A stretch of DNA of 64,000 nt. Origin: Salinigranum rubrum (GTDB taxonomy: Archaea > Halobacteriota > Halobacteria > Halobacteriales > Haloferacaceae). Below the pieces are notes generated by a model. That model was not told where the DNA came from. It searched no databases and saw only the letters and a list, made by a program, of their open reading frames with translations. The stretch spans positions 3,100,001 to 3,164,000 of the forward strand of contig NZ_CP026309.1 of the NCBI RefSeq assembly GCF_002906575.1, given 5' to 3'. Shown piece after piece: positions 38,241-59,634 of this stretch. How positions within the stretch are numbered: the stretch's first letter is position 1; each line of letters starts with the position of its first letter. Made by a program: the position numbers and the translations under genes.

Positions 38241-41200
38241 TCAGCCGACGTACGTTTGCTGGAGGTACGCTTCGACCTGCTGGCGCTCGGTGTCGGTGAG
38301 CGCGCGGTCGTAGATGACTACGGCGGCGACGTCCATGTCGAGATACGGCGCGGGCGTCATCTCCGCACCCACGACGAGCCTGTCGTTATCCGTCGCGAAC
38401 GTGTGCGTCGCCGAGTCGATGGCCGTTCCGTCCTTATAGTGGGTGAACGCCCCGTTCGAGTGGACGGCCGACTGGGTGAACCACCCAGTTCCGGTGCCCG
38501 CGGTCGTCGAGACGTAGTCGTTCGGCCCGCCCCAGCCCTGCACCATCAGGTCGCCGTTCGGGTCGACCGACAGCCCGAACACCTGGTTCTCCTTCGGGAG
38601 GCCGTATGCGACACCGCCGTAGCCGACCTCGCGGTACTCCGCGACCACGAACACGGTACGGTCCGCATTACCGGTGGGGACGCCGGTGAGCCCACCGGTT
38701 CGAGACGCCACGTCGTCGACGCCGTCGAACCGGACGACCTGTGCGCCGGTCGGACTCGTCGCCAGCGTCGGTCCACCGCTGGCCGTCAGGTCGTTCCCGT
38801 TGCCCGACTGGTCCGCCCACGTCGTCACAGAACCTCCAGAAGTCGTGACGCCCGTCGTCGAGTCGAGATGCAGCGCCAGTCCGCTCGTCACCGGGAGGTC
38901 GCTCGAACTGGTCGATATCGAGACGGAGACGACGGCCTCGTTCGAGACGTTCCCGGTCGAATCCGCGACCGTGTAGGCGAACGAGTCGCTCGTCGTCACC
39001 GACCCGTCGTGGGTGTACTCGATAGCACCCGTGGCGGCGTCCACGACGAGCGTTCCGGACGCGGGGTACGACGTCACCTGTACCGTGGTCGGGTCGATGT
39101 CGCCGTCCGCGTCGGCGTCGTTCGCGAGGACGTCGACCGTGACACTCCCGCCCTGCGCGACCGACGCACTGTCGTCGGTCGCCACCGGGGCCGTGTCGGT
39201 CGACGCCGCTTCGAGCGTCACCGTCACCGAGTCGGTCGCCTCCGAATTCGTGTACGCGGCGTGGCCCGAATCGGCGACCGTCGCCGTCACCGTGTGGCTT
39301 CCCGCCGCGACGCCGGTGAAGGTGTACGTCCCCGAGAGCGGGCGGTCGTCGACGACCGCCCCGCCGTCGAGCGAGAGGTGGACGTGGTCGCCGCTCTGTG
39401 CGGCGGTCGCGTCCCACGACACCGACAGGTCCGAACCGGTGACGGTCGCTCCCTCCGTCGGGTCGGTGATCGAGACGGAGGCCGTCGACGTCGAGCCTCC
39501 ACTGCCGACGTACGTCTGCTGGAGGTAGTCTTCGACCTGCTGGCGCTCGGTGTCGGTGAGCGCGCGGTCGTAGATGACTACGGCGGCGACGTCCATGTCG
39601 AGGTACGGCGCGGGCGTCATCTCCGCGCCCACGACGATCCGATTCGCCGTCGTGGTGAAGCTGTGTGTGGCCGAGTCGATGGACGTCCCGTCCCTGTAGT
39701 GGGTGAACGCCCCGTTCGAGTGGACGACCGACTGGGTGAGCCAGCCGGCACCCGTGCCCGCGGTCGTAGAGATGTAGTCGTTCGACCCGCCCCAGCCCTG
39801 CACCATCAGGTTCCCGTCCGGGCCCACCGAGAGGCCGAAGGCGTCGTTCGTCGAGGGAGAGCCGTACGCGACACCACCGTAGCCGACCTCGCGGTACTCC
39901 GCGACGACGAACATCGTGCGGTCGGCGTCACCTGTCGGCACGGCTGCCAGACCACCGGTCCGCGATGCCACGTCGTCGACGCCGTCGAACCGGACGACCT
40001 GTGCGCCGGTCGGACTCGTGGCGAGGGATGGACCGCCGCTCGCCGTCAGGTCGTTGCCGTTGCCCGACTGGTCCGCCCACGTCGTCACAGAACCTCCAGA
40101 AGTCGTGACGCCCGTCGTCGAATCGAGGTGGAGCGCTAATCCACTGGTGACTGGGAGGTCGCTCGGCGGCGGCGAACTGGAGACCGACACCGACACCGTC
40201 GCCTCGTTCGAGGTCGCACCCGCGTCGTCGTCGACGGTGTAGGCGAACGAGTCGCTCGTCGTCGCCGACCCGTCGTGGGTGTACTCGATGGCACCCGTGG
40301 CCGCGTCCACGACGAGCGTTCCGGATGCCGGGTACGACGTCACCTGCACCGTCGTCGGGTCGAGGCTCCCGTCGGGGTCGTCGTCGTTGGCGAGAACGTC
40401 CACAGTGGTGCTCCCGCCCTGAGAGACGCTTGCGCTGTCGTCGGTCGCCACCGGCGGACTGTTAGTGGTCGCGGCTTCGAGCGTGACCGTCACCGAGTCG
40501 GTCGCTCCCGGGTTCGTGTACGCGGCGTGGCCCGAATCGGCGACAGTCGCCGTCACCGTGTGGCTTCCCGCCGCGACGCCCGTGAACGTGTACGTCCCCG
40601 AGAGCGGACGGTCGTCGACGACCGGACCTCCGTCGAGCGAGAGGTGGACGTGGTCGCCGCTCTGTGCGGCGGTCGCGTCCCACGACACCGACAGGTCCGA
40701 ACCGGTGACGGTCGCTCCCTCCGTCGGGTCGGTGATCGAGACGGAGGCCGTCGACGTGCCGGTACCGACGTACTGCTGCTGGAGGTAGTCTTCGACCTGC
40801 TGGCGTTCGGTGTCGCTGAGCGCGCGGTCGTAGATGATCACGGCAGCGACGTCCATGTCGAGGTACGGCGCGGGCGTCATCTCCGCGCCGACCACGAGCC
40901 TGTCGTTATCCGTCGCGAACGTGTGCGTCGCACTGTCGATGGCCGTTCCGTCCTTGTAGTGGGTGAACGCCCCGTTCGAGTGAACGACCGACTGCGTGAA
41001 CCACCCAGTTCCGGTACCTGCCGTGGTCGAGACGTAGTCGTTCGGCCCGCCCCAGCCCTGCACCATCAGGTCGCCGTTCGGGTCGACTGCGAGCCCGAAC
41101 ACCTGGTTTCTTTTCGGAAGCCCGTACGCGACACCGCCGTAGCCGACCTCGCGGTACTCCGCGACCACGAACATCGTGCGGTCCCCATCACCCGTCGGCA

Positions 41201-44200
41201 CGGCTGCCAGTCCACCAGTTCGAGAGGCAACGTCGTCGACGCCGTCGAACCGGACGACCTGTGCGCCGGTCGGACTCGTGGCGAGGGTCGGCCCGCCGCT
41301 CGCCGTCAGGTCGTTCCCGTTGCCCGACTGGTCCGCCCACGTCGTCACCGCTCCGCCACTGGTGGCCACACCGGTCGTCGAGTCGAGGTGGAGCGCCAGT
41401 CCGCTCGTCACCGGGAGGTCGCTCGGCGGTGGTGAGCCCGATATCGAGACGGAGACGACGGCCTCGTTCGAGACGTTGGCCGTCGAGTCCGCGACCGTGT
41501 ACCGGAACGAGTCGCTCGTCGACGACGAGCCGTCGTGGTCGTACGTGACCGCTCCGGTCGCGGAGTCGACGCTGACGTCCCCCGACACGGGGTACTCCGT
41601 GATGCGGACCGAAGACGGGTCGATGTCGCCGTCCGCGTCCGCGTCGTTCGCGAGAACGTCGACCGTGACGCTCCCGCCCTGCGCGACGCTCGCGCTGTCG
41701 TCGGCCGCGACCGGGGCGGTGTCACTCGTCGTCGGTGTCGTCACGTACTGCTGCTGGAGGTACTCCTCGACCTGCTGGCGTTCGGTGTCGCTGAGCGCGC
41801 GGTCGTAAACGAACACGGCGGCGACGTCCATGTCGACGTAGGGGTCCTCGTCGATTTCCGCACCCATCACGATTCGATCAGTCGTCGTCGCGAACGCGTG
41901 GGACGCGCTGTCGATGACGGTCCCGTCCTTGTAGTGGGTGAGCGCCCCGTTCGAGTGGACCGCGGCCTGGGTCAGCCAGCCCGCACCCGTGCCCACTGTC
42001 GTGGTGTGGAAGTCGTTGCGGCGGCCCCATCCCTGAACCATCATCTCGCCGTCGGGGTTGACCGAGAGGCCGAACAACTGGTTCAGCGCGGGCGACCCGT
42101 AGCCGACGCCGCCGTATCCGGGCGAGTCATAGCGGACGAGCGCGACCACCGTGCGGTCGGCGTCGCCGGACGGGAACCCGGTCAGACCGGTCCGGACGAG
42201 CGCGTCGCCGGTGCCGTCGAACGCGACGACCTGCTCGCCGTTGGGGGCGTCCGAGGCGACCTGGGGGTCACCGACGGCGGTGAGGTCGTTCCCGTTGCCG
42301 GAGACGTCCGACCAGCCGGTCACCGTGCCGCCGGAGGTCGAGAGTCCCTGCGTCGACTCGTACTGGGCGACCAGTCCGTCGGTCGGAACGCCCGAGGAGG
42401 TGCACGGGCCGCTGGCGACGTACGTCGCGGTGTAGGTCGTGTCCGTCGTCGGAACGCGGACCACGTGGCTCCGCGCGCCGCCGTCGGACCACGAGTCGAA
42501 CTCGTAGGTCGTCCCGGCGACGCACTGGGCGGCGGGTGCGGTGAGCGTGTGGTCGAACCCGATGAGCGTGTCGTACACGTACGGGGTCGTGTCGGGGATG
42601 CCGTCGATGGAGACGTCGATACCGTCCGGCGACGTGTCGATGGTCAGATCCACCTTCTCCGGGTCGATGTCGACGCTCTGCGTGCTGCTCACGCCCGTCG
42701 ACGTGTCGGTCGCCGTCAACGAGATGCGGTAGCCTGTGTCGCCGTGGTAGTCGTGTCCCGTCCGTGCGATGTCGAACGAGCCGCTACTCCCCGAAACGGG
42801 TCCCAGTACCGGGTGGGTGTGGTCGTTGTGCGTGAACAGCACCGTCCAGGAGAGGTCCTCCGGCGGGACGGGGTCGCCGGCGGCGGTCGTCGCACTTCCG
42901 GAGAAGGTGATGGTGTCGCCGGCGACGAACGTCGAGCCGTCGGTCGGCGAGCCGATTTGGACGACGGGCCCCGACCCGACGGTGATCTCGATGGGGTCCG
43001 AGATGTCCTCGTTCCCCGACGCGTCCGTCACCCGCAGTCGCGCCTGGTACACTCCCGTCGAGGAGTACGTGTGCGTCACCGTCGATCCGGTCGCCGTCGT
43101 TCCGTCTCCGAACTCCCACGTGTACGTCAGCGCCTCGTCGTTCGGGTCCTCCGCGAAGCCGGTGAACTCCACCGTCAGCGGCGCGTCGCCCTGGGTGACG
43201 TCCGCGCCCGCGCCGGTGATGTAGGGAGAGTCGGTCGCGAACTTGTACTCGACGCGCTTGACGTTCCCGTAGGCGATAAGCGGGGAGTACAGCGCGCCGT
43301 CGGGTCCCTCGACGAGGTCGACGGGCCGACCCGCGAAGGTCCGGAAGAGGTAGTCGCCGGTCACGGCACCCGTGTCGTCGAACGTCAGGTAGCGGAGCTC
43401 GTTGTACGCGTAGTCCGCGAAGAAGTACGCGCCCGTGTACGCGGACGGATACTGGTTCCCACGGTAGACCGGGCCGCTGATGATCGACCCGCCGACGTCG
43501 CGGTGAGGGTAGCTGTACAGGGGGTCGGTGTACTCGGAGCCGGCGCAGTCGCCCTCACAGATCGGCCACGCGTAGTTGGCTCCCGCCTCGCCGAGGTTGA
43601 CCTCTTCACGGGAGTCGACGACGTTGCCGCCGACGTCACCGACGAAGAACCGGTGCGTCGAGAGGTCCCACTTCGCGCGATAGGGGTTTCGGAGCCCGTA
43701 CGCCCAGACACTGTCGATGGCACTCGCGTTGTCGAGGAACGGGTTGTCCGCGGGAACGGTCCCGTTCGGGGAGAACCGGTGTATCTTCCCGCCGGCGTTC
43801 GAGAGGTCCTGAGAGAGGGCGGGGTCGAACTCCTCGCCGGTGGTGAGGTACAACAGCCCGTCCGGACCGAACTCGAGCCCACCGCCGAAGTGATACTCGC
43901 CGACGTAGGTGTCGGGGTTCTCCCAGATAACCGTCTCGGAGGAGCGGTCGCCCCGCGAGGAGAGCCCGCCGCTGTTCTCGACGTGCTGGAAACGGGCGAC
44001 GCGAGACTGTGCAGGGGTGGCGGGCTGGTAGTAGAGGTAGAAGTACCCGTTCTGCAGGAACTGCGGGTCGACGACGATGCTGATGAGTCCGCGCTCGCCG
44101 GTGGTGTCGATGTTCGTGAGCGTCATGTACGTCTGCGAGTCGAGCGACGTATCGCTGGGGTCGGTGATGACGATCCGACCGCCCTTCTCGAGGACGAGCA

Positions 44201-44456
44201 TCCGACCGTCGGGGAGGAACGTGAGCGAGATGGGCTGGACGAGGCCGTCGACGACGGTTTCGGTCGTGAAATCCGACGGGTCTGTCGACCCCAGGCTACC
44301 AGTGCCGAGCGGGGTGTCGTGGGCGCCGTCGTGTGCGGCGACCGGTTCGGATGCGACGTGAACGAAAGAGACGAGCGACCCAGTCACGACGAAGAACACG
44401 AACAGCACGGTGACGAACGATCGAGCGTGGGTGGTGTGACGGGGATGTAGGAGCAT
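38241..44456 (-). CDS. Giant secreted sugar-dehydrogenase/LamG-repeat protein
   Basis: A 2071-residue secreted protein. Signal peptide to about residue 40. A glucose/sorbosone dehydrogenase beta-propeller runs about 58-405, with GERGLISIVVDPQF, HFGGGLEFGPDGLLYLTTG and YGLRNPYRAKWD. A PKD domain is at 418-498 (YTWEFGDGTTATG), an Ig-like domain at 500-598 and a PEGA-like domain at 600-682. The rest is made of LamG-like domains (684-902, 1010-1228, 1430-1648, 1850-2070), cadherin-like domains (905-1008, 1330-1428, 1752-1848) and Ig-like domains (1230-1328, 1652-1750). There is no C-terminal anchor. It neighbours the polysaccharide locus, so binding or oxidation of surface glycans is an inference. 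Confidence 0.85.
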   Translation of the reverse strand: MLLHPRHTTHARSFVTVLFVFFVVTGSLVSFVHVASEPVAAHDGAHDTPLGTGSLGSTDPSDFTTETVVDGLVQPISLTFLPDGRMLVLEKGGRIVITDPSDTSLDSQTYMTLTNIDTTGERGLISIVVDPQFLQNGYFYLYYQPATPAQSRVARFQHVENSGGLSSRGDRSSETVIWENPDTYVGEYHFGGGLEFGPDGLLYLTTGEEFDPALSQDLSNAGGKIHRFSPNGTVPADNPFLDNASAIDSVWAYGLRNPYRAKWDLSTHRFFVGDVGGNVVDSREEVNLGEAGANYAWPICEGDCAGSEYTDPLYSYPHRDVGGSIISGPVYRGNQYPSAYTGAYFFADYAYNELRYLTFDDTGAVTGDYLFRTFAGRPVDLVEGPDGALYSPLIAYGNVKRVEYKFATDSPYITGAGADVTQGDAPLTVEFTGFAEDPNDEALTYTWEFGDGTTATGSTVTHTYSSTGVYQARLRVTDASGNEDISDPIEITVGSGPVVQIGSPTDGSTFVAGDTITFSGSATTAAGDPVPPEDLSWTVLFTHNDHTHPVLGPVSGSSGSFDIARTGHDYHGDTGYRISLTATDTSTGVSSTQSVDIDPEKVDLTIDTSPDGIDVSIDGIPDTTPYVYDTLIGFDHTLTAPAAQCVAGTTYEFDSWSDGGARSHVVRVPTTDTTYTATYVASGPCTSSGVPTDGLVAQYESTQGLSTSGGTVTGWSDVSGNGNDLTAVGDPQVASDAPNGEQVVAFDGTGDALVRTGLTGFPSGDADRTVVALVRYDSPGYGGVGYGSPALNQLFGLSVNPDGEMMVQGWGRRNDFHTTTVGTGAGWLTQAAVHSNGALTHYKDGTVIDSASHAFATTTDRIVMGAEIDEDPYVDMDVAAVFVYDRALSDTERQQVEEYLQQQYVTTPTTSDTAPVAADDSASVAQGGSVTVDVLANDADADGDIDPSSVRITEYPVSGDVSVDSATGAVTYDHDGSSSTSDSFRYTVADSTANVSNEAVVSVSISGSPPPSDLPVTSGLALHLDSTTGVATSGGAVTTWADQSGNGNDLTASGGPTLATSPTGAQVVRFDGVDDVASRTGGLAAVPTGDGDRTMFVVAEYREVGYGGVAYGLPKRNQVFGLAVDPNGDLMVQGWGGPNDYVSTTAGTGTGWFTQSVVHSNGAFTHYKDGTAIDSATHTFATDNDRLVVGAEMTPAPYLDMDVAAVIIYDRALSDTERQQVEDYLQQQYVGTGTSTASVSITDPTEGATVTGSDLSVSWDATAAQSGDHVHLSLDGGPVVDDRPLSGTYTFTGVAAGSHTVTATVADSGHAAYTNPGATDSVTVTLEAATTNSPPVATDDSASVSQGGSTTVDVLANDDDPDGSLDPTTVQVTSYPASGTLVVDAATGAIEYTHDGSATTSDSFAYTVDDDAGATSNEATVSVSVSSSPPPSDLPVTSGLALHLDSTTGVTTSGGSVTTWADQSGNGNDLTASGGPSLATSPTGAQVVRFDGVDDVASRTGGLAAVPTGDADRTMFVVAEYREVGYGGVAYGSPSTNDAFGLSVGPDGNLMVQGWGGSNDYISTTAGTGAGWLTQSVVHSNGAFTHYRDGTSIDSATHSFTTTANRIVVGAEMTPAPYLDMDVAAVVIYDRALTDTERQQVEDYLQQTYVGSGGSTSTASVSITDPTEGATVTGSDLSVSWDATAAQSGDHVHLSLDGGAVVDDRPLSGTYTFTGVAAGSHTVTATVADSGHAAYTNSEATDSVTVTLEAASTDTAPVATDDSASVAQGGSVTVDVLANDADADGDIDPTTVQVTSYPASGTLVVDAATGAIEYTHDGSVTTSDSFAYTVADSTGNVSNEAVVSVSISTSSSDLPVTSGLALHLDSTTGVTTSGGSVTTWADQSGNGNDLTASGGPTLATSPTGAQVVRFDGVDDVASRTGGLTGVPTGNADRTVFVVAEYREVGYGGVAYGLPKENQVFGLSVDPNGDLMVQGWGGPNDYVSTTAGTGTGWFTQSAVHSNGAFTHYKDGTAIDSATHTFATDNDRLVVGAEMTPAPYLDMDVAAVVIYDRALTDTERQQVEAYLQQTYVG
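38244..39503 (-). repeat. 1260-bp coding repeat, unit 1 (Ig + cadherin-like + LamG)
   Basis: This unit and the next are offset by exactly 1260 bases (for example the start of the phrase at 38251 and at 39511) and are nearly identical over long runs. The unit encodes the C-terminal Ig-like, cadherin-like and LamG domains of the 2071-residue protein. Confidence 0.8.
39504..40763 (-). repeat. 1260-bp coding repeat, unit 2 (Ig + cadherin-like + LamG)
   Basis: Second copy of the 1260-base unit, in phase with unit 1 and with the following partial unit (phrase positions 39511 and 40771). Long stretches such as the Ig-like region around 40550-40740 match 39290-39480 almost base for base. Confidence 0.8.
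40764..41748 (-). repeat. 985-bp coding repeat, unit 3 (cadherin-like + LamG, no Ig)
   Basis: The same order as units 1 and 2 but without the Ig-like domain, so the offset to the next copy is 985 bases (40771 to 41756). A fourth, more diverged LamG copy lies at about 41749-42405. Confidence 0.75.
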
Positions 44457-45020
44457 GATGGAAGCGAGAGAGACGGATTTTACCAGTCATACACACTCTG
44501 GTGAATAAGTTAGACACTGCAATCTGCACGGGGCGGCGTGATGGGAATAACGTACCGCGGATTAATTATCACGGAATCAGATACATGCCGCCGCAGACAG
44601 GGGAAATCCCCACCGACAGGGACGGCGGCGGCAGAGGGGTGCAGTCCGGTGAAACGGCCGGTTAGGATCGCGTTATCGAGACGGACACACCATAACATCC
44701 GTGTTTCTGATACGATCGGCGACCTCTCATCGAGGCGTGAATTCCCGACGCGCACAGCGAGAGAGGCGTCACCGTCCCCGAGACGGTCACGAGAGAGACG
44801 ACATCGACCGGTCGAGGACCACGACGAACGACACGGCGACGTCTCGGTGGGACCTGTCGTCCGGAGGAGTGAAACCGGGGCGGGGACGGCTGCGGTTCGG
44901 GGCCGGAACGCGGATTAGTGTCGGACCCGCGTGGTTGGTCGGTCTATACTCATACCCTCTCACCGGCAAAGAGGAGCCAGACAAGTGTCACGAAGAGGAG
45001 TGCGAGGACTCGTCGCCCGG
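44457..45020. other. Divergent spacer between the giant gene and the flippase gene
   Basis: About 560 bases without a recognisable gene; promoters for both divergent genes should lie here. A perfect palindrome GGGGAAATCCCC is at 44600-44611, and an A/T-rich patch is at 44561-44585. Short frames on the minus strand are not convincing. In-frame GTG at 44985 is a possible alternative flippase start. Confidence 0.4.
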
Positions 45021-46487
45021 ATGGTTCCGGACGGTGATCTCACGGAACGAGCTGTCAAGAGCGGGCTGTGGGCGTCGGCGATCACCGCCGGGAACCGCGG
45101 TCTCCAGATCGTCACCCTCGTCGTCATCGCCGGGCTGCTCGGTCCGACGGCGCTCGGACTCCTCGGCATCGCGCTGCTCACCCTCGCCGTGCTCGAAGTG
45201 TTCTCGAACCTCGGGATGGACGCGGCACTCATCCAGCGTCGGGAGGCGAACGTCGACGCGTATCTCGACACCGCGTGGGTGATGCAGGTCGTCCGTGGGG
45301 TCGTGCTGGCCGTCGTCGCGTGGACGATTGCCCCGCACGCGGCCGTGTTCTTCGGCGAGCCACGGAGCGTCGACCTGATACGCGCGATCGGGTTCTCGCC
45401 GCTCCTCTTGGGACTGCGGAATCCGGCCGTGATGTACTTCCAGAAGAACCTGGAGTTCCACCGCCAGTTCGGCTACCAGCTGTCGGGAACGGTCGTCGAC
45501 GTGAGCGTCGCGCTCGTGCTGGCGATTACGACGGGGAGCGTCTGGGCACTCGTCCTCGGGAAGCTCGCGGGCGACGTGACCCGGACGCTCGTGTCGTATC
45601 TCATCCACGACTACCGGCCGTCGGTCCGTGCGGACCTGAGTAAGGGGCGCGAGCTGTTCGGCTACGGCAAGTGGATCATGGGCGCGTCCATCACGGCGTT
45701 CCTGCTCGGCCAGGGTGACGACGTCTTCGTCGGTTGGTTCCTCGGTGCGACGGCGCTCGGGCTCTACCAGCTCGCGTACCGCCTGGCGAACGCCCCCGCG
45801 ACCGAAATCACGAAAGTAATCTCCTCGACGATGTTCCCGACGTACTCGAAGCTACAGGACGACCGGTCCGCGGTTCGGGCGGCGTACTTCCGCGTCCTGC
45901 AGTTCACGAGCTTCCTCACCTTCCCGATGAGCGTCGGAATCCTGGTGACCGCACCGCTGTTCGTCACCGGTTTCCTCGGCGAGGAGTGGTTGCCCATGGT
46001 GCCGGTGCTGCAGGTACTCACGCTGTGGGGGCTGCTGCTCTCGGTCGGCGCGAACGTCGGCCCGCTGTTCCGTGCGCTCGGGCGTCCGGACCTCGAGACG
46101 AAGGTGAAGGTCTGGAAGCTCCTCGTGGTCGCGCTCTTGATCTACCCTGCGACGGACGCGTACGGCGTCGTCGGAACCGCAGGTGCGGTCATCGTCGCCT
46201 CGCTCCTCACCTCCGAGCCGCTGGCCAACTACTGGGGGCTGAAGCTCATCGACGGGACGGTCAGACAGTTCGCGCGGACGCTGGCGTACCCGACGGCGAC
46301 GAGCCTCGCGATGGGCGGCGTCGTCTACGCGGTTCGCGAGAGCGTCACGCTGGCACCCGCCGTCGAGTTCGTCGTCCTCGTCGTCGTCGGAATGGCCGCG
46401 TACGCCGGGGCGGTCCTGGTCGTGGAGTCGACGACAGACTACGACGTCGGCTCGATGCTCTCGCTCATCCGGCGGAACCTCGCGTGA
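45021..46487 (+). CDS. Polysaccharide flippase (Wzx/COG2244 type)
   Basis: A 488-residue membrane protein with about 12-14 helices that should move lipid-linked oligosaccharides across the membrane. Family features: start MVPDGDLTERAVKSGLWAS, RREANVDAYLDTAWVMQVVR near residue 73, YFQKNLEFHRQFGYQL near 140 and YQLAYRLANAPATEITKVIS near 250. The ATG at 45021 is chosen because homologues begin about ten residues before TERAVKSG; upstream in-frame codons reach 44931. It leads the surface-glycan locus. Confidence 0.85.
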   Translation: MVPDGDLTERAVKSGLWASAITAGNRGLQIVTLVVIAGLLGPTALGLLGIALLTLAVLEVFSNLGMDAALIQRREANVDAYLDTAWVMQVVRGVVLAVVAWTIAPHAAVFFGEPRSVDLIRAIGFSPLLLGLRNPAVMYFQKNLEFHRQFGYQLSGTVVDVSVALVLAITTGSVWALVLGKLAGDVTRTLVSYLIHDYRPSVRADLSKGRELFGYGKWIMGASITAFLLGQGDDVFVGWFLGATALGLYQLAYRLANAPATEITKVISSTMFPTYSKLQDDRSAVRAAYFRVLQFTSFLTFPMSVGILVTAPLFVTGFLGEEWLPMVPVLQVLTLWGLLLSVGANVGPLFRALGRPDLETKVKVWKLLVVALLIYPATDAYGVVGTAGAVIVASLLTSEPLANYWGLKLIDGTVRQFARTLAYPTATSLAMGGVVYAVRESVTLAPAVEFVVLVVVGMAAYAGAVLVVESTTDYDVGSMLSLIRRNLA

Positions 46488-46585: not shown

Positions 46586-48004
46586 ATGAAACGGAACGTC
46601 GTCCTGATCTGTCTCGACACGGTCAGGAAGGACTACTTCGACCGGTTCGCCCCACGGCTCTCGGCGGCGGCGAACGTCTCCTACGAGCAGTGTCGGACCG
46701 CATCCGCGTGGAGTACACCCAGCCACGCATCGATGCTGACCGGGACGCTCCCGCACGAGCACGGCGTCCACACCCACAACAGGGACTTCTCGACGCTCGC
46801 ACGCGAGGACACCGTCATCGGCGACCTGACGCGCGAGGGGTACGCTGCGCTCGGGGTGAGCGCGAACCTCTTCGTCGGCCCCCGATACGGCTTCGACACG
46901 CTGTTCGACCGGTTCACGCCTGTCACACCCGACGTCGTCTTCCAGGACGCGTGGGAACCGCTCGACGTGGAAGGAACGGGCGTCAGGCGCGGGCTCAACT
47001 ACGTTCGTGCGGCTCGCGACCGGAACCAACTCGGCAAGTACACCGCGAACGTGGCGGCACACCGGGTCAACCAGATCCTGAAGCGCCTCCCGGTCTCCTT
47101 CCAGGACAAAGGAGGCGCCGCGGTCTCCCGTGAGGCGCTCGGACAGATTCGCGAGACCGAGGGCCCCTTCGTCCAGTTCGTCAACTTCATGGACGCCCAC
47201 CAGCCGCACCACCCGTTCCGGGGCATCGACGACTCGCTTCACGCCGTTCCCCGCGGGTGGACCTCCGCCGACGACTTCTACCGCGTCAAGTGGGATATCA
47301 ACCGCGAGGGACGGGTCGAAGAGAACCGCGAGTTCCTCGACCGGTTCGAGCAACTGTACGGTGCCTCCGTCGAGTACCTCGACCGGCTCGTCGTCGACTT
47401 CATCGACCAAGTCCGTGCGGAGACGGACGGCAACACGACGTTCGTCGTCACTGCGGACCACGGTGAAAACCTGGGAGGGGCGGCCGACGGCTACCTGTTC
47501 GAGCACACGTCGAGCCTCTCGGAGGGGCTGTTGCACGTCCCCTGCGTCGTCGTCGACGCGCCGACCGATGACGAGCGCGTCGTCACCGAGACTGTCTCAC
47601 ACCTCCAGTTGCGGGAGTTGCTCGTCGGCCTCGCGCGCGGAGAACTCCCGGACATCTCTCGGGACCGCATCGCCGCCGAGGTGGTCGGCCTCTCGCCCGG
47701 CACGGTCGACCTCACCGCCGACGAGGAGGCGTACTTCGACCGTATGCTCCGGGCAGTCTACGAGGGGGACCGGAAGTACGTCTGGGATTCACAGGGGAAC
47801 GCGCTCGCGTACCGACTCGACTGCGAGCGGCCGTCCTGGCAGGAACTGACCGAGGAGGACGTCCGGCCACCCGAGTGGGCTTCGGCGTTCTTCCCCGGAG
47901 ACATCACGACGGCGAAGGAACGGGCCCGGGACGGCGCTTCCGAGGGACGAGAGACGGTCGACTCGTTCGCCGAGGCCCGACTCCGCGATCTGGGGTATCT
48001 CTGA
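46586..48004 (+). CDS. Sulfatase-superfamily enzyme
   Basis: A 472-residue protein of the alkaline phosphatase/sulfatase fold. The first metal Asp is in LICLDTVRKDY (residue 11). The nucleophile region reads WSTPSHASMLTG around residue 42, where classical sulfatases have Cys/Ser-X-Pro-X-Arg. The second metal site TADHGEN is near residue 291. There is no Cys for formylglycine, so either a Ser/Thr is used or the enzyme transfers phospho-groups rather than hydrolysing sulfate. No signal peptide or membrane helix is seen, suggesting a cytoplasmic task on glycan precursors. It is in line with the flippase. Confidence 0.8.
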   Translation: MKRNVVLICLDTVRKDYFDRFAPRLSAAANVSYEQCRTASAWSTPSHASMLTGTLPHEHGVHTHNRDFSTLAREDTVIGDLTREGYAALGVSANLFVGPRYGFDTLFDRFTPVTPDVVFQDAWEPLDVEGTGVRRGLNYVRAARDRNQLGKYTANVAAHRVNQILKRLPVSFQDKGGAAVSREALGQIRETEGPFVQFVNFMDAHQPHHPFRGIDDSLHAVPRGWTSADDFYRVKWDINREGRVEENREFLDRFEQLYGASVEYLDRLVVDFIDQVRAETDGNTTFVVTADHGENLGGAADGYLFEHTSSLSEGLLHVPCVVVDAPTDDERVVTETVSHLQLRELLVGLARGELPDISRDRIAAEVVGLSPGTVDLTADEEAYFDRMLRAVYEGDRKYVWDSQGNALAYRLDCERPSWQELTEEDVRPPEWASAFFPGDITTAKERARDGASEGRETVDSFAEARLRDLGYL

Positions 48005-48264
48005 GATGCTCGGGAGACGGACCAAGTCGACTGGTGCACGACACGAGCCTTCCGGCTGGGATCGAGGGCGTCGGGACCGGCGTTCTCGTGAACTACGTGT
48101 TCGAGACGCTCGTTCACGTGACGTGCGCACAGCGCGGTGTCGGCCACCCACGACTGAGTCGCGACGCCCGATTCAGACCCACCGAACGGCTCTCTGGCTC
48201 GTCTAAGGCCGCGGAAGGACGGCATTATCTCTCGCAGAGACGCTCGGTGCGGGTGGAAGAGGGT

Positions 48265-48277
48265 TCATAAATAAACC
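48265..48277 (+). promoter_or_regulatory. A/T box before the second sulfatase-family gene
   Basis: TCATAAATAAACC in an otherwise GC-rich 300-base spacer, centred about 33 bases before the ATG at 48304. It indicates an independent promoter rather than read-through from the first sulfatase gene. The rest of the spacer (48005-48260) shows no gene. Confidence 0.45.
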
Positions 48278-48303
48278 GCTCAGTGGGGTTTTGAGGCCCA
48301 GAG

Positions 48304-49818
48304 ATGAACTCAGCTCCACACGTTGTTCTCCTCACTATCGACTGCTGGCGGTACGACAGATGTGGGTTCAACGGATATTCGAGACCGACGACGCCGGCGC
48401 TCGACGAACTGGCGGGCGAGTCGTTCGTGTTCGACCGCGCGTTCGCGACGGGGAGTGTCACCGCGGGGTCGTTCCCCGGTATCCTCGCCGGGCACCACTC
48501 GTACGACGGATCGGTCAACAGCCGACATCCCCGGTCCGAGGTTCAGGGGATACCGCCCGGTAGCGAAACCCTCGCGAGCCACTTTCGGACGAACGGCTAC
48601 CGGACCGTCGCGACGGTCACCAATGCACATCTCCTGCCGAGTCTGAATTTCGACGCCGGGTTCGACGAGTTCGACAACGTCGAGGTGGGCGACCGAGACG
48701 ACGAGGGCGGTGACGAGTCGTCGGTCGGCGACGACCGCGAGCGCGAAGGAGAGACGGACAGCGGGTCGCGCGGGCCGACCATGGGCGACGTCTTCCAGGA
48801 ACTCCGCCGCCGCCTCCGCTGGGAGCAGGGGTCCGCGTCGCTCCTCCGGAACCCGTACGCCCTGCCCTTCGTCGCCTACCGGTTCAACCAACTCCAGAAC
48901 TGGCCGAGCCCGCCGGCCGCGTCGGTGATCGACGCCTTCACCCAACAGCTGGACGACGCCTTCGAGTCGGGCACACCCGTGTTCGGCTGGACGCACCTGA
49001 TGGACCTCCACGCGCCGATCCACCCCGCGCAGGTCAACGAGGGAGGGCTGGTCTCGACCGCTCGCTTCGAGGCGTTCCGCTGTGACGTCGAACGGCTCTG
49101 TAACGTGTACAGCCCGGGATACAACGCGATGTACGACAGCGTCGTCCGGTACATCGACGGCCAGATCGCCGCGCTGGTCGCCCACCTGAAAGAGCGGGGC
49201 GTGTGGGAGAACACCGTCCTCGTGGTGACGGGCGACCACGGCGAGGCGCTCGGTGACCGCGGGTTCTACGGCCACCCGGCCCACTACATGTACGACGAAC
49301 TCCTCCACGTGCCCCTGCTGGTCCGGGCGCCGATGGGTATCGGGAGGCGCCTCGACGGGCCGTTCTCGCTCGGCTGGCTCCACGAACTCGTCTCCGACGT
49401 CGCGGGCGTTCCCCGTGGGCAGTTCCCCGCCGAGAGCGGTCGGACCTCCCACGTCACCGACGAAGGTGACGAGGACGCCGTCGTGGTGTCGGACGCGCTC
49501 GACGACCTCGGCCACAGCATCGTGACGCGGAACGGTGCGTGGAAGTACTGGCGGGTCTGCGACGCGAGAAAGGAGTGGGTGTACATCGACCTCGACGAGG
49601 AGAACCCGACGACGTGGGACTGGACCGAGGAGGGGACGGCGTTCAGAGTCGACTCCGACCGGACCGAACGGCACCCGCTCCCGGGAGGGGTGGCGCCGGA
49701 GGCCCTCTCGCGGCTCGCGGACGACCTCGAAACGACGAACGCTGACCGTCCCAAACTCCGCGTCGAGTACGACTCGGACGTCGAGGACCGGCTCAAACAA
49801 CTCGGCTACCAGATGTAG
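48304..49818 (+). CDS. Sulfatase-superfamily enzyme
   Basis: A 504-residue paralogue of the previous enzyme. The metal Asp is in LLTIDCWRYDRCGFNGY (residue 13), the nucleophile region is ATGSVTAGSFPGILAG around residue 55, and the second metal site is TGDHGEALGDRGFYGH near residue 311. An acidic insertion (residues about 135-160) is peculiar to this copy. Both sulfatase-family proteins end in a similar RLxxLGY tail, which suggests a common ancestor. The likely substrate is a cell-surface glycan or its carrier. Confidence 0.8.
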   Translation: MNSAPHVVLLTIDCWRYDRCGFNGYSRPTTPALDELAGESFVFDRAFATGSVTAGSFPGILAGHHSYDGSVNSRHPRSEVQGIPPGSETLASHFRTNGYRTVATVTNAHLLPSLNFDAGFDEFDNVEVGDRDDEGGDESSVGDDREREGETDSGSRGPTMGDVFQELRRRLRWEQGSASLLRNPYALPFVAYRFNQLQNWPSPPAASVIDAFTQQLDDAFESGTPVFGWTHLMDLHAPIHPAQVNEGGLVSTARFEAFRCDVERLCNVYSPGYNAMYDSVVRYIDGQIAALVAHLKERGVWENTVLVVTGDHGEALGDRGFYGHPAHYMYDELLHVPLLVRAPMGIGRRLDGPFSLGWLHELVSDVAGVPRGQFPAESGRTSHVTDEGDEDAVVVSDALDDLGHSIVTRNGAWKYWRVCDARKEWVYIDLDEENPTTWDWTEEGTAFRVDSDRTERHPLPGGVAPEALSRLADDLETTNADRPKLRVEYDSDVEDRLKQLGYQM

Positions 49819-52112: not shown

Positions 52113-53210
52113 TTACGCCGACTCCCCGCGACGGTCGCGGACGACGTCGCGGTAGACGGCTGTGGTGCGGTCAGCGATGTCCGCCCAGTCGAACTCGGCG
52201 GCGCGCTCGCGGTTCCACGCCCCCATCGCTTCGAGGTCGAGCGAGTCGAGCGAGCGAAGCGCCGTCCCCAGGCCGTTCGGGTCGTCGGGGTCGTACAGGA
52301 CCGCGCCACACTCCTCGCTGTCGTCGCCGAACAGTTCGGGTAGACAGCCGATGCGTGGCGAGACGAACGCCCTCCCGAAGCTCATCGCGAGGACCGCGCT
52401 CCCGGAGGTGAGCGTGTCGCGGAAGGGCAGGACGACGGCGTCGGCGGCCAGCATGTACGTCGGCACGTCCTCCGCGGGGATGTACTCGAGGCGCGTGCGG
52501 ACGCGCTCGTCCCCGCGGGCAGCACGAGAGACCGCCCCGCGCACGTCGTCCGTGTGGGGGTTCCCCGCGACGAGGAGGTAGTCGTCGTCGCCGGCCACCC
52601 GGGAGAACGTCTCGATCAGCGTCGGGACGTTCTTGTACGGGCGGATGATGCCGAAGTACAGCAGCACGGTCGCATCGAGGGGGAGGTCGAGTTCCGCGCG
52701 CGCGTCGGCCCGAGCGCCCTCGGTGTCGTACCGGTCGAGATAGTGTCCGTGCGGAACGACGTGCATCTTCGCTCGCTCCGTGGGGTCGAGACCGTACTCC
52801 TCGATCGCCTGGTCGATAGCGGCGTTGCAGTGGGCGATCACCGCGTCGCAGAAGTGCGTGACGAACAGTCGCTTGAGCCGCTTCTCGGTCTCGGGATAGG
52901 GGAAGTCGTGCGAGGTGAGGTTGTGGAGCGTCCAGACGACGCGGACGCCGAGCAGTCGCAGGACGAAGAGTTCGACGAAGAGCATGGTCGCGCGCACGTA
53001 GAACAGCGGACGCCACGGGGCGTGGAAGTACGCGTGGAGCCAGTGGACGTGGAGGACGTCCACGTCCGAGTTCCGGAGGTACGACCGAAAGAGCGTGAAA
53101 AAGAGTCCACCGACGGTGGGTTCGACGGTCGCTCCACGCTCATCGAGGGACTCTCGGAGGGCTTCCTGGTACGGATTGGACGCGTAGTACGGAGCGAAGA
53201 GGACCTTCAC
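52113..53210 (-). CDS. GT4 family glycosyltransferase
   Basis: A 365-residue cytoplasmic transferase of the GT-B fold. Acceptor-side motif VLHVHWLHAYF, then TLHNLTSHDFP. On the donor side VVPHGHYLDRY, LLYFGIIRPYKNVPTLIETF, VVLPFRDTLTSGSAVLAMS and PRIGCLPELF. It starts at a GTG (53210, reading VKVLFAPYYASNPYQ), since the long upstream extension is low-complexity. It uses a nucleotide sugar to extend a lipid-linked glycan; the sugar is unknown. Confidence 0.85.
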   Translation of the reverse strand: MKVLFAPYYASNPYQEALRESLDERGATVEPTVGGLFFTLFRSYLRNSDVDVLHVHWLHAYFHAPWRPLFYVRATMLFVELFVLRLLGVRVVWTLHNLTSHDFPYPETEKRLKRLFVTHFCDAVIAHCNAAIDQAIEEYGLDPTERAKMHVVPHGHYLDRYDTEGARADARAELDLPLDATVLLYFGIIRPYKNVPTLIETFSRVAGDDDYLLVAGNPHTDDVRGAVSRAARGDERVRTRLEYIPAEDVPTYMLAADAVVLPFRDTLTSGSAVLAMSFGRAFVSPRIGCLPELFGDDSEECGAVLYDPDDPNGLGTALRSLDSLDLEAMGAWNRERAAEFDWADIADRTTAVYRDVVRDRRGESA

Positions 53211-53329
53211 GTCATCCGGCAGCGACGAAGAGGGAACGAAAGTATGTGTCGACTCGGTCGGGTCGCCACCGGCAGCCCCGGTGAAACGCGGCCGGACTAC
53301 GTCGTCGTGTGGCTGTCTGGGTCCCACTC

Positions 53330-54424
53330 TCAGTCCTCGGGGAGGGTGTGTGGAGACCCCGAACCGGATGGCGACACCGACCCACCAGCCCGACTCGGCC
53401 GAGTCGAGCGGTGGCGGTGAAACCCGAGTCCACACAGCCCGACCCCGCTCAGCGTGACGAGCGAGAGGGCGGCGACGAGTCCGAGCGACGCGGCCGGTGC
53501 CAAGAGGAAGAAAGAGACGAACAGTCCGAGGAGTGCCACGGCGACGCCGGGGAAGCCGAGCGCCAGAAGCGGCCGGTCGCGGACCGTCGTCGTGGCGATC
53601 GCCGACAGCAGATCGAACCCCTGCGTGATGGGGTTCTGGCTGCTGGCGTGATCGACGTCGTAGGTGATGGTCGTCCCGACCTCGGCGGTCGTGTAGCCGT
53701 TCCGGTGGACGTGATAGAGGATGTCCAGGCTCGCCGCCATGCAGTCGCCGATGGTCTCGTCCGCGGCGAGCGACCTGGTGACCAGAGCGTCGTACGCGCG
53801 GAAGCCGCTCTGTGCGTCGGAGAGGCGCTGGCTCGAACGGTACGTGCCGAGGCTGAGGTTCGTCAGCGTGTTGATCACCCAGAGTCCGAACCGGCGATAC
53901 AGCGGCGCGTCGGTCGCCGCCCCCTCGACGAACCGACTCCCGATGACGACGTTCGCACCCGTCTCGACCTGCGTGGCGACGAGGCGGGGGATGTCCGAGA
54001 CGGTGTGCTGTCCGTCGGCGTCGATGACGACGAGGTGGTTCGCTTCGCGGGCGGCGGCCTCGACGAAGATGGTCTTCAGGGCGCCGCCGTAGCCGCGGTT
54101 CGTCGGGTGTCGGATGACGAGCGCGCCGGTACGCGCCGCCTCTGCTGCGGTGTCGTCGTCGCTGCCGTCGTCGACGACGAGGACGAGGTCGGCGTGCGGT
54201 CGGACCGCGTCGACGACTGCCCCGACCGTTCCCTCCTCGTTGTACGCCGGCATCGCGACGACGACGCCGACGTCGTCCGGGGTGTCGTCGGACGCGCCCC
54301 CGTAGCGGGGTCGACTGGTCGAGGCGGTTCGGTTCGGAGGGGTTCGATTCGGAGAGGAACCGGAGAGAGTGGATGGTTCGGCCGTCGAGATGGACGCGGC
54401 CGACTCGGTGACATCTGGTGACAC
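53330..54424 (-). CDS. GT2 family glycosyltransferase (dolichyl-phosphate sugar synthase-like)
   Basis: A 364-residue protein. After a Ser/Pro/Thr-rich N-terminal stretch of about 50 residues comes a GT-A domain with AMPAYNEEGTVGAVVDAVR, VVDDGSDDDT and the metal-binding VIDADGQHTV, then SQRLSDAQSGFRAY. Two membrane helices (about 285-335) close the protein. The arrangement resembles dolichyl-phosphate glucose or mannose synthases, which charge a lipid carrier. A box CTATAAC about 35 bases upstream on the minus strand is the probable promoter. Confidence 0.86.
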   Translation of the reverse strand: MSPDVTESAASISTAEPSTLSGSSPNRTPPNRTASTSRPRYGGASDDTPDDVGVVVAMPAYNEEGTVGAVVDAVRPHADLVLVVDDGSDDDTAAEAARTGALVIRHPTNRGYGGALKTIFVEAAAREANHLVVIDADGQHTVSDIPRLVATQVETGANVVIGSRFVEGAATDAPLYRRFGLWVINTLTNLSLGTYRSSQRLSDAQSGFRAYDALVTRSLAADETIGDCMAASLDILYHVHRNGYTTAEVGTTITYDVDHASSQNPITQGFDLLSAIATTTVRDRPLLALGFPGVAVALLGLFVSFFLLAPAASLGLVAALSLVTLSGVGLCGLGFHRHRSTRPSRAGGSVSPSGSGSPHTLPED

Positions 54425-56824: not shown

Positions 56825-57153
56825 TCGCCAGTCATCTCGCCTTCAGACACCAAAAGTCCATACCGCATAACACCGGTTCGGGCCGTCGTCTCGGTGAGTC
56901 ACCGAACCGTGAACGTCGCCGTGGCCGACCGGACGAGTGAGCGACGAACCACGCCGCCTGCGGTCGGTTTCGGCGCTTCGAGCCGTCTGCCCCGGGCGGT
57001 TAGTCGACGTGTACCTATTAGCGCCGCCCGAGACGGGTAGACGAGTTCACGTATCGGCCGTCCGCGGCCCGGACGACCGCCGGTGGCGGGAACGGGCCGT
57101 ATCCGTCTCGCCGGGCTGTGCAGGGTCGCCGGAGAGCGTGGCCGTTCCAAGCA
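56825..57153. other. Divergent spacer between DUF1616 and GT4 genes
   Basis: About 330 bases, no gene recognised. Weak A/T patches at 56857-56872 and around 57012-57020 may be promoters for the divergent genes. No repeats were noticed. Confidence 0.35.
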
Positions 57154-58398
57154 ATGACACAGATCACACACCCGACACAGGAACAACCCGTCTCCGAGAC
57201 GGCCGACGACGCGACGCCACGACCGCTGAATCTGCTCCAGGTGAGCACGTTCTTCAAACCGTCCTGGGAGGCGGGCGGAATCGCCCGCGTGTGCTACGAG
57301 GTAGCGAAGCGACTCGCCGTCCACCACGACGTCACGACGTACACGACAGACGGCTGCCAGAGACGGCTCGACGTTCCCACCGACCGCCCGGTCGAGGACG
57401 AAGGGATGACGATTCACTACTTCAGGAACCTCTCGACGAGGCTGGCCAGTCACAACGCCTCGTTGCCGTACACGCTGCCGTTCCGTGCGCGGAGGGACGT
57501 CGAGAACTACGACGTCATCCACGTCCACACGCTGCGAACGGCCCTCGCCGTCGCTGTCTGTCACTACGCCCGCAAGCACGACGTGCCGTACGTCATCGAG
57601 GCCCACGGGACGCTCGTCCCGAAGTACAGCAAGCTCAGGTCGAAGCGGCTGTTCGACCGACTGTTCGGGCGGCGCATCCTCGCGGGTGCGGAGAAGGTGA
57701 TCGCGCTGAACCGGACCGAGGCGCAACACTACGAGTCGTACGGGGTCGAGCCCGACCGGATCGAAATCGTCCCGAACGGGCTCGACCTCTCCGAGTACTC
57801 GGTCCCGCCGGCGACGGACACGGGCTTCCGCGAGCGACACGGAATCCCGCTCGACCATCGGGTGGTCCTCTACGTCGGCCGACTGCACGACAGCAAGGGG
57901 CTGGACCTGCTCGTCGAGGCGTTCGAGCGCGTGCGGGCGACGCGCCCCGACACGACGCTCGTCATCGTCGGGCCGGACGACGGCGCGGAGGCTAGTCTGC
58001 GACGGGCCGTCGCGGGCGCCGGACTCGACGAGGCGGTCGTCTTCGCGGGATACGTCCCCTGGGAGGAGAAACTCGCCGCGCTGGCGACCGCCGACGTGTT
58101 CGTCACGCCACGGTTCACCGGCTTCCCGATGACGTTTCTCGAAGCCGGGGCGGCCGGCCTCCCCGTCGTGACGACGTTCGTCGAGGAGGAACTCGACTGG
58201 CTCCACGAGCAGGTCGGCCTCGTGACGGCGTACGACGAGGCGGCGTTCGCCGACGCGGTCGGGCGACTCCTCGACGACGAGCCGATGCGAACCGCGTACG
58301 GCGAGGCGGGACGACGCCTCGTCGACGACCGATTCACCTGGGACGCCGTCGTCGCTCGACTCGACGCGCTCTACCGCGACTGTCTCCTCGACTCGTAG
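57154..58398 (+). CDS. GT4 family glycosyltransferase
   Basis: A 414-residue GT-B enzyme. N-terminal domain: LNLLQVSTFFKPSWEAGGIA, DVIHVHTLRTALAV and IEAHGTLVPKYSKLR. C-terminal domain: IVPNGLDLSEYSVP, VLYVGRLHDSKGLDLLVEAF and PMTFLEAGAAGLPVVTTFV with the retaining-enzyme Glu pair. About 35 residues before the first strand are polar and variable. No membrane helix. The start MTQITHPTQEQ at 57154 is the first ATG downstream of the spacer. Confidence 0.87.
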   Translation: MTQITHPTQEQPVSETADDATPRPLNLLQVSTFFKPSWEAGGIARVCYEVAKRLAVHHDVTTYTTDGCQRRLDVPTDRPVEDEGMTIHYFRNLSTRLASHNASLPYTLPFRARRDVENYDVIHVHTLRTALAVAVCHYARKHDVPYVIEAHGTLVPKYSKLRSKRLFDRLFGRRILAGAEKVIALNRTEAQHYESYGVEPDRIEIVPNGLDLSEYSVPPATDTGFRERHGIPLDHRVVLYVGRLHDSKGLDLLVEAFERVRATRPDTTLVIVGPDDGAEASLRRAVAGAGLDEAVVFAGYVPWEEKLAALATADVFVTPRFTGFPMTFLEAGAAGLPVVTTFVEEELDWLHEQVGLVTAYDEAAFADAVGRLLDDEPMRTAYGEAGRRLVDDRFTWDAVVARLDALYRDCLLDS

Positions 58399-58659
58399 CG
58401 TCTCCTCGGCGTTCATCGCGGCGTAGCGTCCCCACCTAGCGTCGAAGCCGTTCTCTCACTGGTGCGATAGTCGTCTCCCGAGGGGTGGCGTCGTTGGCCT
58501 CTCCGTTCGTGTGTACGCTCGAAGCGCAGCGCCTGAGGTGCGTCGTCTCGCGGGGTCTCTCTCCGAGCGCGTCTGGCGATGACCGCGGTATGAGACCACT
58601 AACGCCCGGTATTCTGTGACGAACTTTATCCGAAACCGCAGTTGGTAGTGGCAACGACG

Positions 58660-59634
58660 ATGGAAGACAGCATCACGATCGTACAGCACGGTGGCGGATG
58701 GATCTCGAACATCGGCAACGCCTTCATCGACTACGGCTCGATGTACTCGCTCGGTCAGGCCGCGCCCGAGGCCGACGTCCACCTGACGAGCAGCTTCGGT
58801 CGCTGGATCTCGACGCAGATGAACCGCGGGCTCCGCGGCGTGGTGTTCGGAAGCCTCGGACACATCGACAACGCGTTCAATCAGGTCGGTTCGGCCGACG
58901 CGGACTACATCGTCCAGTCGGGTACCTGCCTCTCGGACCACTGGATGCAGCTCCACGGCGACGTCCTGCTCGAGGCGAAAGACCGTGGTGCGGAGCTCCT
59001 CCTGTACGGGGTCGGGATGACCGACGACACGTACAACGAAGCAGAAATCGAGAAGACCCGCGAGTGGCTCGAACGCCTCGAACCCTACGCGTTCGTCTCG
59101 CGCGACGAGCGGACGTACGAGGCGTTCGACGACGTCGCCGACCACAGCTACAACGGCATCGACTGCGGGTTCTTCTCGAATCACAGCCACGACCCCATGC
59201 CGTTCGACCTCGACGAGTACGTCGTCGTCAACTTCGACAAGCGCCCCGAACCCGACCTGGCCGAACTCGGAATCCACCCAGACGAGACGGTGATCCGGAC
59301 GCACCACTCGTTCTGGTTCGACTTCCCGTTCACGCAGTACCGCGAGATGCACAACGAGTACTACAACCGCGACAACGTCCTCATCTCGGACGTTCCGACG
59401 GAGTACCTCGACGTGTACGCGGGGAGCGCCGCGACGTACTCCGACCGCGTCCACGCCTGCGTGGCGACGCTCGCGTACGGCCACCCGGCGCACCTCTCTC
59501 ACTCCACCCCGCGGGCACTGCTGTTCGAGCGGGTCGGCATGGGCGACATCACCCAGGGGCTCATCGAACCCGACCTGGAGGACCTGATGGAGGAGAAGCA
59601 GGCACAGATCGACTTCATGAGCGAGATCCTCTGA
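58660..59634 (+). CDS. Polysaccharide pyruvyl transferase-like protein
   Basis: A 324-residue cytoplasmic protein. ITIVQHGGGWISNIGNAFID at the start, DYIVQSGTCLSDHWMQ near residue 85, ELLLYGVGMTDDTYN near 110, PYAFVSRDERTYEAF near 140 and VDxG-like turns follow the pyruvyl transferase (CsaB/WcaK) layout. The conserved C-terminal element YSDRVHACVATLAYGHPAHL near 265 is typical. It would put ketal-linked pyruvate from phosphoenolpyruvate on a sugar, adding negative charge. The start at 58660 follows a TTTATC box at 58625-58630, so the leader is very short. Confidence 0.78.
   Translation: MEDSITIVQHGGGWISNIGNAFIDYGSMYSLGQAAPEADVHLTSSFGRWISTQMNRGLRGVVFGSLGHIDNAFNQVGSADADYIVQSGTCLSDHWMQLHGDVLLEAKDRGAELLLYGVGMTDDTYNEAEIEKTREWLERLEPYAFVSRDERTYEAFDDVADHSYNGIDCGFFSNHSHDPMPFDLDEYVVVNFDKRPEPDLAELGIHPDETVIRTHHSFWFDFPFTQYREMHNEYYNRDNVLISDVPTEYLDVYAGSAATYSDRVHACVATLAYGHPAHLSHSTPRALLFERVGMGDITQGLIEPDLEDLMEEKQAQIDFMSEIL

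Follow-up and report, generated by a model that had tools for sequence, protein, structure and literature searches.

Among the closest described systems are proteins of two haloarchaea. Agl30 (VNG1056C; UniProt Q9HQQ3) and Agl31 (VNG1057C; UniProt Q9HQQ2) of Halobacterium salinarum have been reported as sulfatase-like sulfotransferases of a dolichol phosphate (DolP)-linked N-glycan (Zaretsky et al., mBio 2025, PMC11980604). Deletion of VNG1056C or VNG1057C lowered the disulfated glycopeptide 250-fold or over 50-fold, respectively, and expression of either gene singly in Haloferax volcanii gave sulfated glycopeptides; VNG1057C was found to be soluble and Agl30 membrane-bound (PMC11980604). In Hfx. 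volcanii lacking Agl7, the DolP-linked glycan was unsulfated and none was found on protein (PMC3871713). A term search of PMC11980604 gave no hit for nucleophile, formylglycine, catalytic, active site, phosphoadenosine, or PAPS (3'-phosphoadenosine 5'-phosphosulfate), and a literature search turned up no publication on which residue of Agl30 or Agl31 is the nucleophile. Here, two sulfatase-like genes of Salinigranum rubrum, P1 and P2, were examined within a stretch of 64,000 nucleotides (the window; bases 3100001-3164000 of contig C1 in this 4.97-Mb haloarchaeal genome, which is 98% complete).

Both open reading frames (ORFs) were intact and lay on the plus strand behind a flippase gene, with 98 bp between the flippase end and the P1 start on the same strand and 299 bp between P1 and P2. 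In window coordinates, the three genes are as follows.

44931..46487, plus strand: polysaccharide flippase of the MOP superfamily, Wzx/AglR-like (PF13440, E = 1e-80; PF01943, E = 4.5e-31)
46586..48004, plus strand: P1, sulfatase-like protein of the Ser/Thr type, 472 residues, predicted cytosolic (PF00884, E = 2.5e-23)
48304..49818, plus strand: P2, sulfatase-like protein of the Ser/Thr type, 504 residues, predicted cytosolic (PF00884, E = 4e-35)

Active sites and predicted fold of P1 and P2

The register of the nucleophile was set by HMMER alignments to choline sulfatase and exo-galactose-6-sulfatase, together with a profile alignment of the P1 and P2 families that spanned 434 columns (E = 2.2e-30) and placed S43 of P1 opposite T53 of P2. 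The two sequences themselves were 25% identical over 213 residues. The P1 family held 42 sequences, the members other than P1 being 35 to 51% identical to it; two further rows are truncated P1 copies (L004 and L086) with gaps at the N-terminal columns, where n is accordingly 42 rather than 44. The P2 family held 11 aligned sequences at the N-terminal columns and 12 rows at D311-H312 and H324. The active-site features are listed below.

46616..46621, plus strand: P1 D11-T12, with the metal Asp kept and the second Asp of sulfatases replaced by Thr; D11 in 42/42 non-gap rows
46712..46726, plus strand: P1 nucleophile segment S43-T-P-S-H47, preceded by W; of 42 non-gap rows, 39 have Ser and 3 have Thr at position 43
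47456..47461, plus strand: P1 D291-H292 (DHG); 44/44 rows
47504..47506, plus strand: P1 H307, at or beside the sulfatase Lys position in the choline sulfatase alignment; 44/44 rows
48460..48474, plus strand: P2 nucleophile segment T53-A-G-S-F57, preceded by V; T53 in 11/11 non-gap rows
49234..49239, plus strand: P2 D311-H312 (DHG); 12/12 rows
49273..49275, plus strand: P2 H324 (GH), counterpart of P1 H307 in the profile alignment; 12/12 rows

Across the 42 P1-family rows, position 12 was Thr in 29, Ser in 11, and Ala in 2, and position 47 was His in 35, Tyr in 7, and Arg in none. Residues D11, S92, N94, H205, D291, H292, and H307 were invariant in this family. Counterparts of D11, S/T43, N94, H205, D291-H292, and H307 were present in P2, where the metal pair position reads D13-C14 and where D13, T53, H236, D311, H312, and H324 were invariant among the 11 aligned sequences. 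Neither family therefore retains the Cys, second metal Asp, or Arg that mark formylglycine sulfatases, and since every row that could be read (42/42 and 11/11) carried Ser or Thr at the nucleophile position, this residue is not there by chance. No 19-residue window with the hydrophobicity of a membrane span was found in P1 or P2, nor in any of the 44 P1-family and 12 P2-family rows, and with the first catalytic Asp at residue 11 or 13, a signal peptide or transmembrane segment is unlikely in either protein. The initial annotation, made from the DNA letters alone, had described both proteins as keeping the metal Asp and Asp-His-Gly sites, lacking Cys-X-Pro-X-Arg and a signal peptide, and belonging to a glycan locus, and all of this was borne out, with D11 and D13 as the metal Asp of P1 and P2, the flippase upstream, and glycosyltransferases further on.

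Both proteins scored above the PF00884 cut-off of 25 bits (P1, 83.3 bits; P2, 122 bits) and, with lower scores, above the cut-off of 23 bits for the phosphodiesterase family PF01663 (P1, 41.8 bits; P2, 26 bits). The latter match bears on the idea that P1 and P2 are Ser/Thr-type phosphodiesterases or phosphatases with a role in the trimming or recycling of lipid carriers or of intermediates in glycan synthesis. Many members of the alkaline phosphatase superfamily are hydrolases, and the P-S-H that follows the P1 nucleophile recalls the P-N-H of nucleotide pyrophosphatases. However, P1 scored twice as high with PF00884 as with PF01663, and the activity published for relatives is the addition of groups, not their removal (PMC11980604), so that we consider a hydrolytic role of this kind improbable.

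The AlphaFold2 model of P1 (predicted local distance difference test score, 89.5; predicted template modeling score, 0.89) had a sulfatase fold. Its top match was 4upl (Z 32.0, root mean square deviation [rmsd] 3.6, 375 residues aligned), choline sulfatase 7ptj gave Z 31.4 (rmsd 3.1, 359 aligned), and YejM and phosphonate monoester hydrolases gave Z 28 to 29. For the P2 model (75.8 and 0.80 on the same two measures), Z was 34.2 with a sulfatase module, about 32 with YejM, and 29.2 with the transferase LtaP (4uop; rmsd 3.5, 339 aligned). PDB entry 6HHM, the closest reported for VNG1057C (PMC11980604), was among the top rows for both proteins, at Z 31.0 each. P2 also matched PDB entries 4kav and 5fgn and, weakly, the phosphoethanolamine transferase profile NF028537 (E = 9.7e-12; 44 bits, where the cut-off is 500). 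Structural comparison with phosphotransferases had been proposed in the initial annotation; it does bring LtaP alongside P2, but sulfatases remain the best matches for P1, and the modeled fold leaves the choice between sulfatase and transferase undecided.

The P2 matches are in keeping with an alternative in which P1 and P2 put phosphoglycerol, phosphoethanolamine, or phosphate on lipid-linked glycans by the Ser/Thr chemistry of EptA and LtaS, on the cytosolic side. The active-site set of EptA/LtaS-type enzymes, D..S/T..H..DH..H, resembles that of P1 and P2, whose residues thus appear at least as close to a phosphotransferase as to a sulfotransferase. These enzymes have an N-terminal membrane domain and a catalytic domain that faces outward, whereas P1 and P2 have no transmembrane segment, and the best structural matches of P1 are sulfatases. 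Furthermore, the only studied haloarchaeal relatives that we found are reported to sulfate (PMC11980604). Phosphoryl transfer therefore seems to us unlikely, though a serious contender.

A sulfatase fold, sulfatases as top structural matches, and the S-x-P retained in P1 could also indicate true sulfatases, if an anaerobic radical-SAM enzyme matures the Ser-type P1 or if unmodified Ser or Thr suffices for hydrolysis of sulfate esters. The sulfatase signature is [CS]-x-P-x-R and Thr is not expected to yield formylglycine, and the SulfAtlas authors caution that Thr-type PF00884 proteins cannot be assumed to be sulfatases without evidence (PMC5066984). The Arg of this signature was replaced in 42/42 P1-family rows, as was the second Asp, and no secretion signal was seen. 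The S. rubrum genome gave no match to the formylglycine-generating enzyme (FGE; PF03781), a profile that did match in 4 of 14 genomes used as a control, and none over the cut-off to the anaerobic sulfatase-maturating enzyme (anSME; TIGR03942), for which two matches reached 23.3 and 20.9 bits against 349.45. With three key residues replaced (nucleophile, second metal Asp, and Arg) and no maturation enzyme matched at these thresholds, it is well supported that P1 and P2 are not formylglycine sulfatases, as the initial annotation had held, and true sulfatase activity of any sort is very improbable. In the wider haloarchaeal sample, sulfatase-family genes were near-universal (PF00884 in 288/292 genomes) while FGE was found in 31/292; there was no link between FGE and P1 (9/62 genomes with P1, 22/230 without; P = 0.25).

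The Ser/Thr-type class and the flippase neighborhood

To place the two families, a profile built from them was used to align 179 superfamily ORFs from fetched haloarchaeal loci. After 33 ORFs without the N-terminal columns had been dropped, 146 were classifiable, with a check for CxPxR included in the class call. These comprised 115 Ser/Thr-type and 31 Cys-type ORFs, counts that serve as contrasts and not as frequencies because the loci were a non-random set, mostly best matches to PF00884, P1, or P2. The two classes separated cleanly: Asp or Gln at position 12 occurred in 31/31 Cys-type and 0/115 Ser/Thr-type ORFs, and Arg at position 47 in 30/31 and 0/115, respectively. Where the columns were present, the Ser/Thr type carried Asp-His in 114/114 and His at position 307 in 112/112. 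A C-terminal tail, L-x-x-[LM]-G-Y, was present in 92/115 Ser/Thr-type ORFs and in none of the 31 Cys-type ORFs; it reads LRDLGYL in P1 and LKQLGYQM in P2. This LGY tail is offered here as a probable marker of the class and is not a published definition.

Cys-type proteins came mostly from FGE-bearing genomes (24/31); the genomes of the other seven gave no FGE match. Four sulfatase-like genes with C-G-P-F-R (L050, L052, L053, and L054, from genomes G273, G258, G243, and G069) likewise belong to genomes where none was found. An FGE match lies about 450 bp from the start of the match to one Cys-type sulfatase with CSPTR (L027; G082:C3:39087-41684), as would be expected of a true sulfatase. The S. 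rubrum genome itself had 13 PF00884 matches, corresponding to about 11 genes of which two are broken; nine could be aligned at the site, and all were of the Ser/Thr type. The apparently broken paralogs, each matched in two pieces, lie at G000:C1:2991949-2992826 (L008/L012) and G000:C2:89479-90467 (L009/L011). Annotated plasmid relatives of P1 are named "sulfatase-like hydrolase/transferase."

The published cloning primers for Agl30 and Agl31, when translated, end in HLEDLGYL for VNG1056C and LEELGYT for VNG1057C (PMC11980604). Since the tail was confined to the Ser/Thr class, this is an indirect sign that both belong to it. The VNG1057C primers also encode NGAEIK and NYIQAA, the latter comparable to NYVRAA of P1, at a place that varies within the family; the peptides encoded by inner primers could not be clearly assigned, and membership of Agl31 in the P1 family is suggestive only.

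Neighborhoods were compared in 46 longer loci containing 37 P1-type genes, with "beside" defined as a gap under 500 bp. P1-type genes lay directly beside a MOP flippase in 21/37 cases and within 2.5 kb of one in 27/37, while 5/37 had none in the stretch; one locus is a duplicate (L021 copies L020), without which the first count is 20/36. Other superfamily genes (7/46; Fisher P = 1.3e-4) and GT4 glycosyltransferase genes (14/80; P = 3e-5) were beside a flippase less frequently. As 11 of the 46 loci had been fetched around P2 relatives and so fed the control, the count was also restricted to genes whose stretch contained a flippase, giving 21/32 for P1 against 7/30 for the others (P = 1.0e-3) and 14/61 for GT4 (P = 9.6e-5). 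The second P1-type gene of the S. rubrum genome (L017:12982-14295) also adjoins a flippase. In three Haladaptatus loci (L019, L020, and L021) and in L133, the flippase was the only companion of P1 over 19 to 21 kb among the seven gene families searched, which covered flippase, glycosyltransferase, and superfamily genes; these stretches constitute a flippase-P1 cassette. In five others (L116, L127, L130, L147, and L150), the stretch also held a large membrane protein, taken by inspection rather than by profile for the oligosaccharyltransferase AglB.

The initial annotation had called P1 and P2 paired. They are adjacent in the window, but a conserved pair was rejected. P1-type genes (E below 1e-53) were present in 86/391 haloarchaeal genomes, and strong P2 matches (E below 1e-50) in 14/292, S. 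rubrum included; of the 62 P1 genomes among the 292 searched with both, only S. rubrum, G164, and G244 had P2 as well, and in the latter two it was on a different contig from P1. This genome-level count was needed because the gene caller had missed some genes in the neighborhood maps, so that the maps alone were insufficient to reject the pair. The conserved neighbor of P1 is thus the flippase and not P2.

The same 46 loci contained a short sulfatase-like family of about 300 residues, with 16 members in 14 loci, among them L154:14266-15204, L130:5503-6405, L127:14261-15163, L158:6413-7396, and one in the S. rubrum genome (L013); one scanned member had no Pfam match. The motif [LI]VHYxQPH occurred in L013, L127, and L130, and the peptide VHYFQPH, encoded by a published primer for VNG1063H (PMC11980604), resembles this family.

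Beyond P2, the window continues with the other genes of the glycan region.

52113..53435, minus strand: GT4-type glycosyltransferase (PF13692, E = 2.9e-12)
53330..54424, minus strand: GT2-type glycosyltransferase, AglJ/PpgS-like (PF00535, E = 3.4e-20)
57118-58398 and 59696-60943, plus strand: two GT4 glycosyltransferases (PF00534, E = 8.8e-32 and 7.1e-26)
58642-59634, plus strand: polysaccharide pyruvyl transferase-like gene, between the two GT4 genes (PF04230, E = 1.4e-9)

The product of 53330..54424 also matched NF058614 (E = 3.6e-32) and TIGR04182 (E = 4.8e-25), both under their cut-offs. Directly after P2, a 331-residue ORF, P3 (49891-50886, minus strand), gave a subthreshold PF01663 match (E = 0.0033) and reads GGVD and SENG at the metal-Asp and DHG places of the superfamily. 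It is possibly a degenerate or very divergent member; as a third partner of P1 and P2 it was rejected, the PF01663 score being under the cut-off and a profile comparison with the P1 family giving nothing. Adjoining the region on the other side, 38241-44456 (minus strand) encodes a 2,071-residue protein that combines a glucose/sorbosone dehydrogenase domain and a PKD domain with Big repeats, cadherin-like repeats, and four stretches of Laminin_G_3.

Proposed reaction and the choice of donor

We infer, with about even confidence, that P1, and probably P2, are cytosolic sulfatase-fold transferases that add a group, most likely sulfuryl, to lipid-linked glycans before flipping. The initial annotation had suggested phospho- or sulfotransferases acting on precursors. 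A transferase role is made likely by the transferase-like residue set, the position of P1 beside the flippase, and the precedent of Agl30 and Agl31, while sulfuryl and phosphoryl are not told apart; sulfuryl is favored because Agl30 and Agl31 were reported as sulfotransferases. The transferase idea is plausible but not new; the additions made here are the Ser/Thr class and the flippase pairing.

In such a reaction, D11, D291, and H292 of P1 would hold a divalent metal, and the unmodified Ser (S43 in P1) or Thr (T53 in P2) would be the nucleophile that attacks the donor, forming a covalent sulfo-enzyme or, less probably, a phospho-enzyme. H205 and H307 may serve donor and acceptor. The group would then pass to a sugar hydroxyl of the lipid-linked oligosaccharide at the cytosolic face, and the adjoining MOP flippase would export the decorated glycan.

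Several observations weigh against this assignment. Direct adjacency to a flippase was not seen for 16 of the 37 P1-type genes. In H. salinarum, VNG1063H, a third superfamily protein of the cluster, showed no sulfation phenotype, and basal sulfation persisted without both Agl30 and Agl31 (PMC11980604). Within the superfamily, the kinship of P1 and P2 with this pair was gauged from the LGY tail and is tentative. A P1-like gene in genome G018 (L158:4976-6355), whose bacteriorhodopsin is identical to that of H. salinarum over residues 3-262, was considered as VNG1057C but could not be equated with it, as the start primer was absent with up to two mismatches allowed.

PAPS as the donor was also without genomic support. 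The S. rubrum genome had no match to ATP sulfurylase (PF01747), and its best match to adenosine 5'-phosphosulfate (APS) kinase (PF01583) was weak (1.5e-4); two adjacent PF01507 genes (CysH/CysD-like) were present. Clear APS kinases (E below 1e-30) were found in 19/292 genomes, the other 273 having weak matches (2e-9 to about 1e-3) that were treated as not real, in a scan that scored part of the first-look candidates per genome and could let a divergent kinase escape. Their presence did not track that of P1 (4/62 genomes with P1, 15/230 without). Clear APS kinases were thus scarce in this sample, although sulfated glycans are known in haloarchaea. It follows from the weak or absent matches that PAPS is supplied by an unrecognized enzyme, that another donor is used, or that the group is not sulfuryl, and the shortage of clear sulfate activation also favors the phosphoryl alternative described above.

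A non-PAPS sulfuryl donor would fit the finding of clear APS kinases in so few genomes. A broader and more doubtful proposal may be made, namely, that haloarchaea have a large separate class of Ser/Thr-type sulfatase-fold proteins that are synthetic, metal-dependent, and PAPS-independent sulfo- or phosphotransferases acting on lipid-linked glycans at the cytosolic face, with the P1 clade forming a unit with a dedicated flippase. The candidate signature of such a class would be D-[S/T/A/C/G] .. [S/T] .. N .. H .. DH .. H, often with the C-terminal LGY tail, and the decoration could be a ticket for flipping. If the class is synthetic, the label "sulfatase" misleads, and the role of these genes would be to decorate glycans of the cell's own surface and not to scavenge sulfate. 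A simple rule for re-annotation can be drawn from the residue split and the tail, and a compact module for studying how acidic decoration is coupled to flipping is available in the P1-flippase pair. A Ser/Thr nucleophile is likewise a testable mechanism for Agl30 and Agl31, the chemistry of which was left open in PMC11980604.

Comparison with known systems

With the formylglycine (S1) sulfatases, P1 and P2 share the fold, the first metal Asp, the Asp-His/Asn site, and the catalytic His. They differ in lacking [CS]-x-P-x-R and the second Asp of the Asp-Asp or Asp-Gln pair, in a genome without an FGE match or an anSME match over the cut-off. The Ser/Thr nucleophile, DHG, the GH-type His, and the transferase logic are shared with EptA/MCR and LtaS/LtaP, but those enzymes are membrane-anchored and extracytoplasmic, whereas P1 and P2 are without a transmembrane segment.

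Agl7 of Hfx. volcanii, required for sulfation of the DolP-linked glycan (PMC3871713), is a further point of comparison. The likeness to Agl30 and Agl31 comprises membership in the alkaline phosphatase superfamily, location in a glycosylation cluster, and the LGY tail, which for the H. salinarum proteins is read from the published primers. Agl30 is membrane-bound, unlike P1 and P2, while Agl31 is soluble, as is predicted for both of the S. rubrum proteins.

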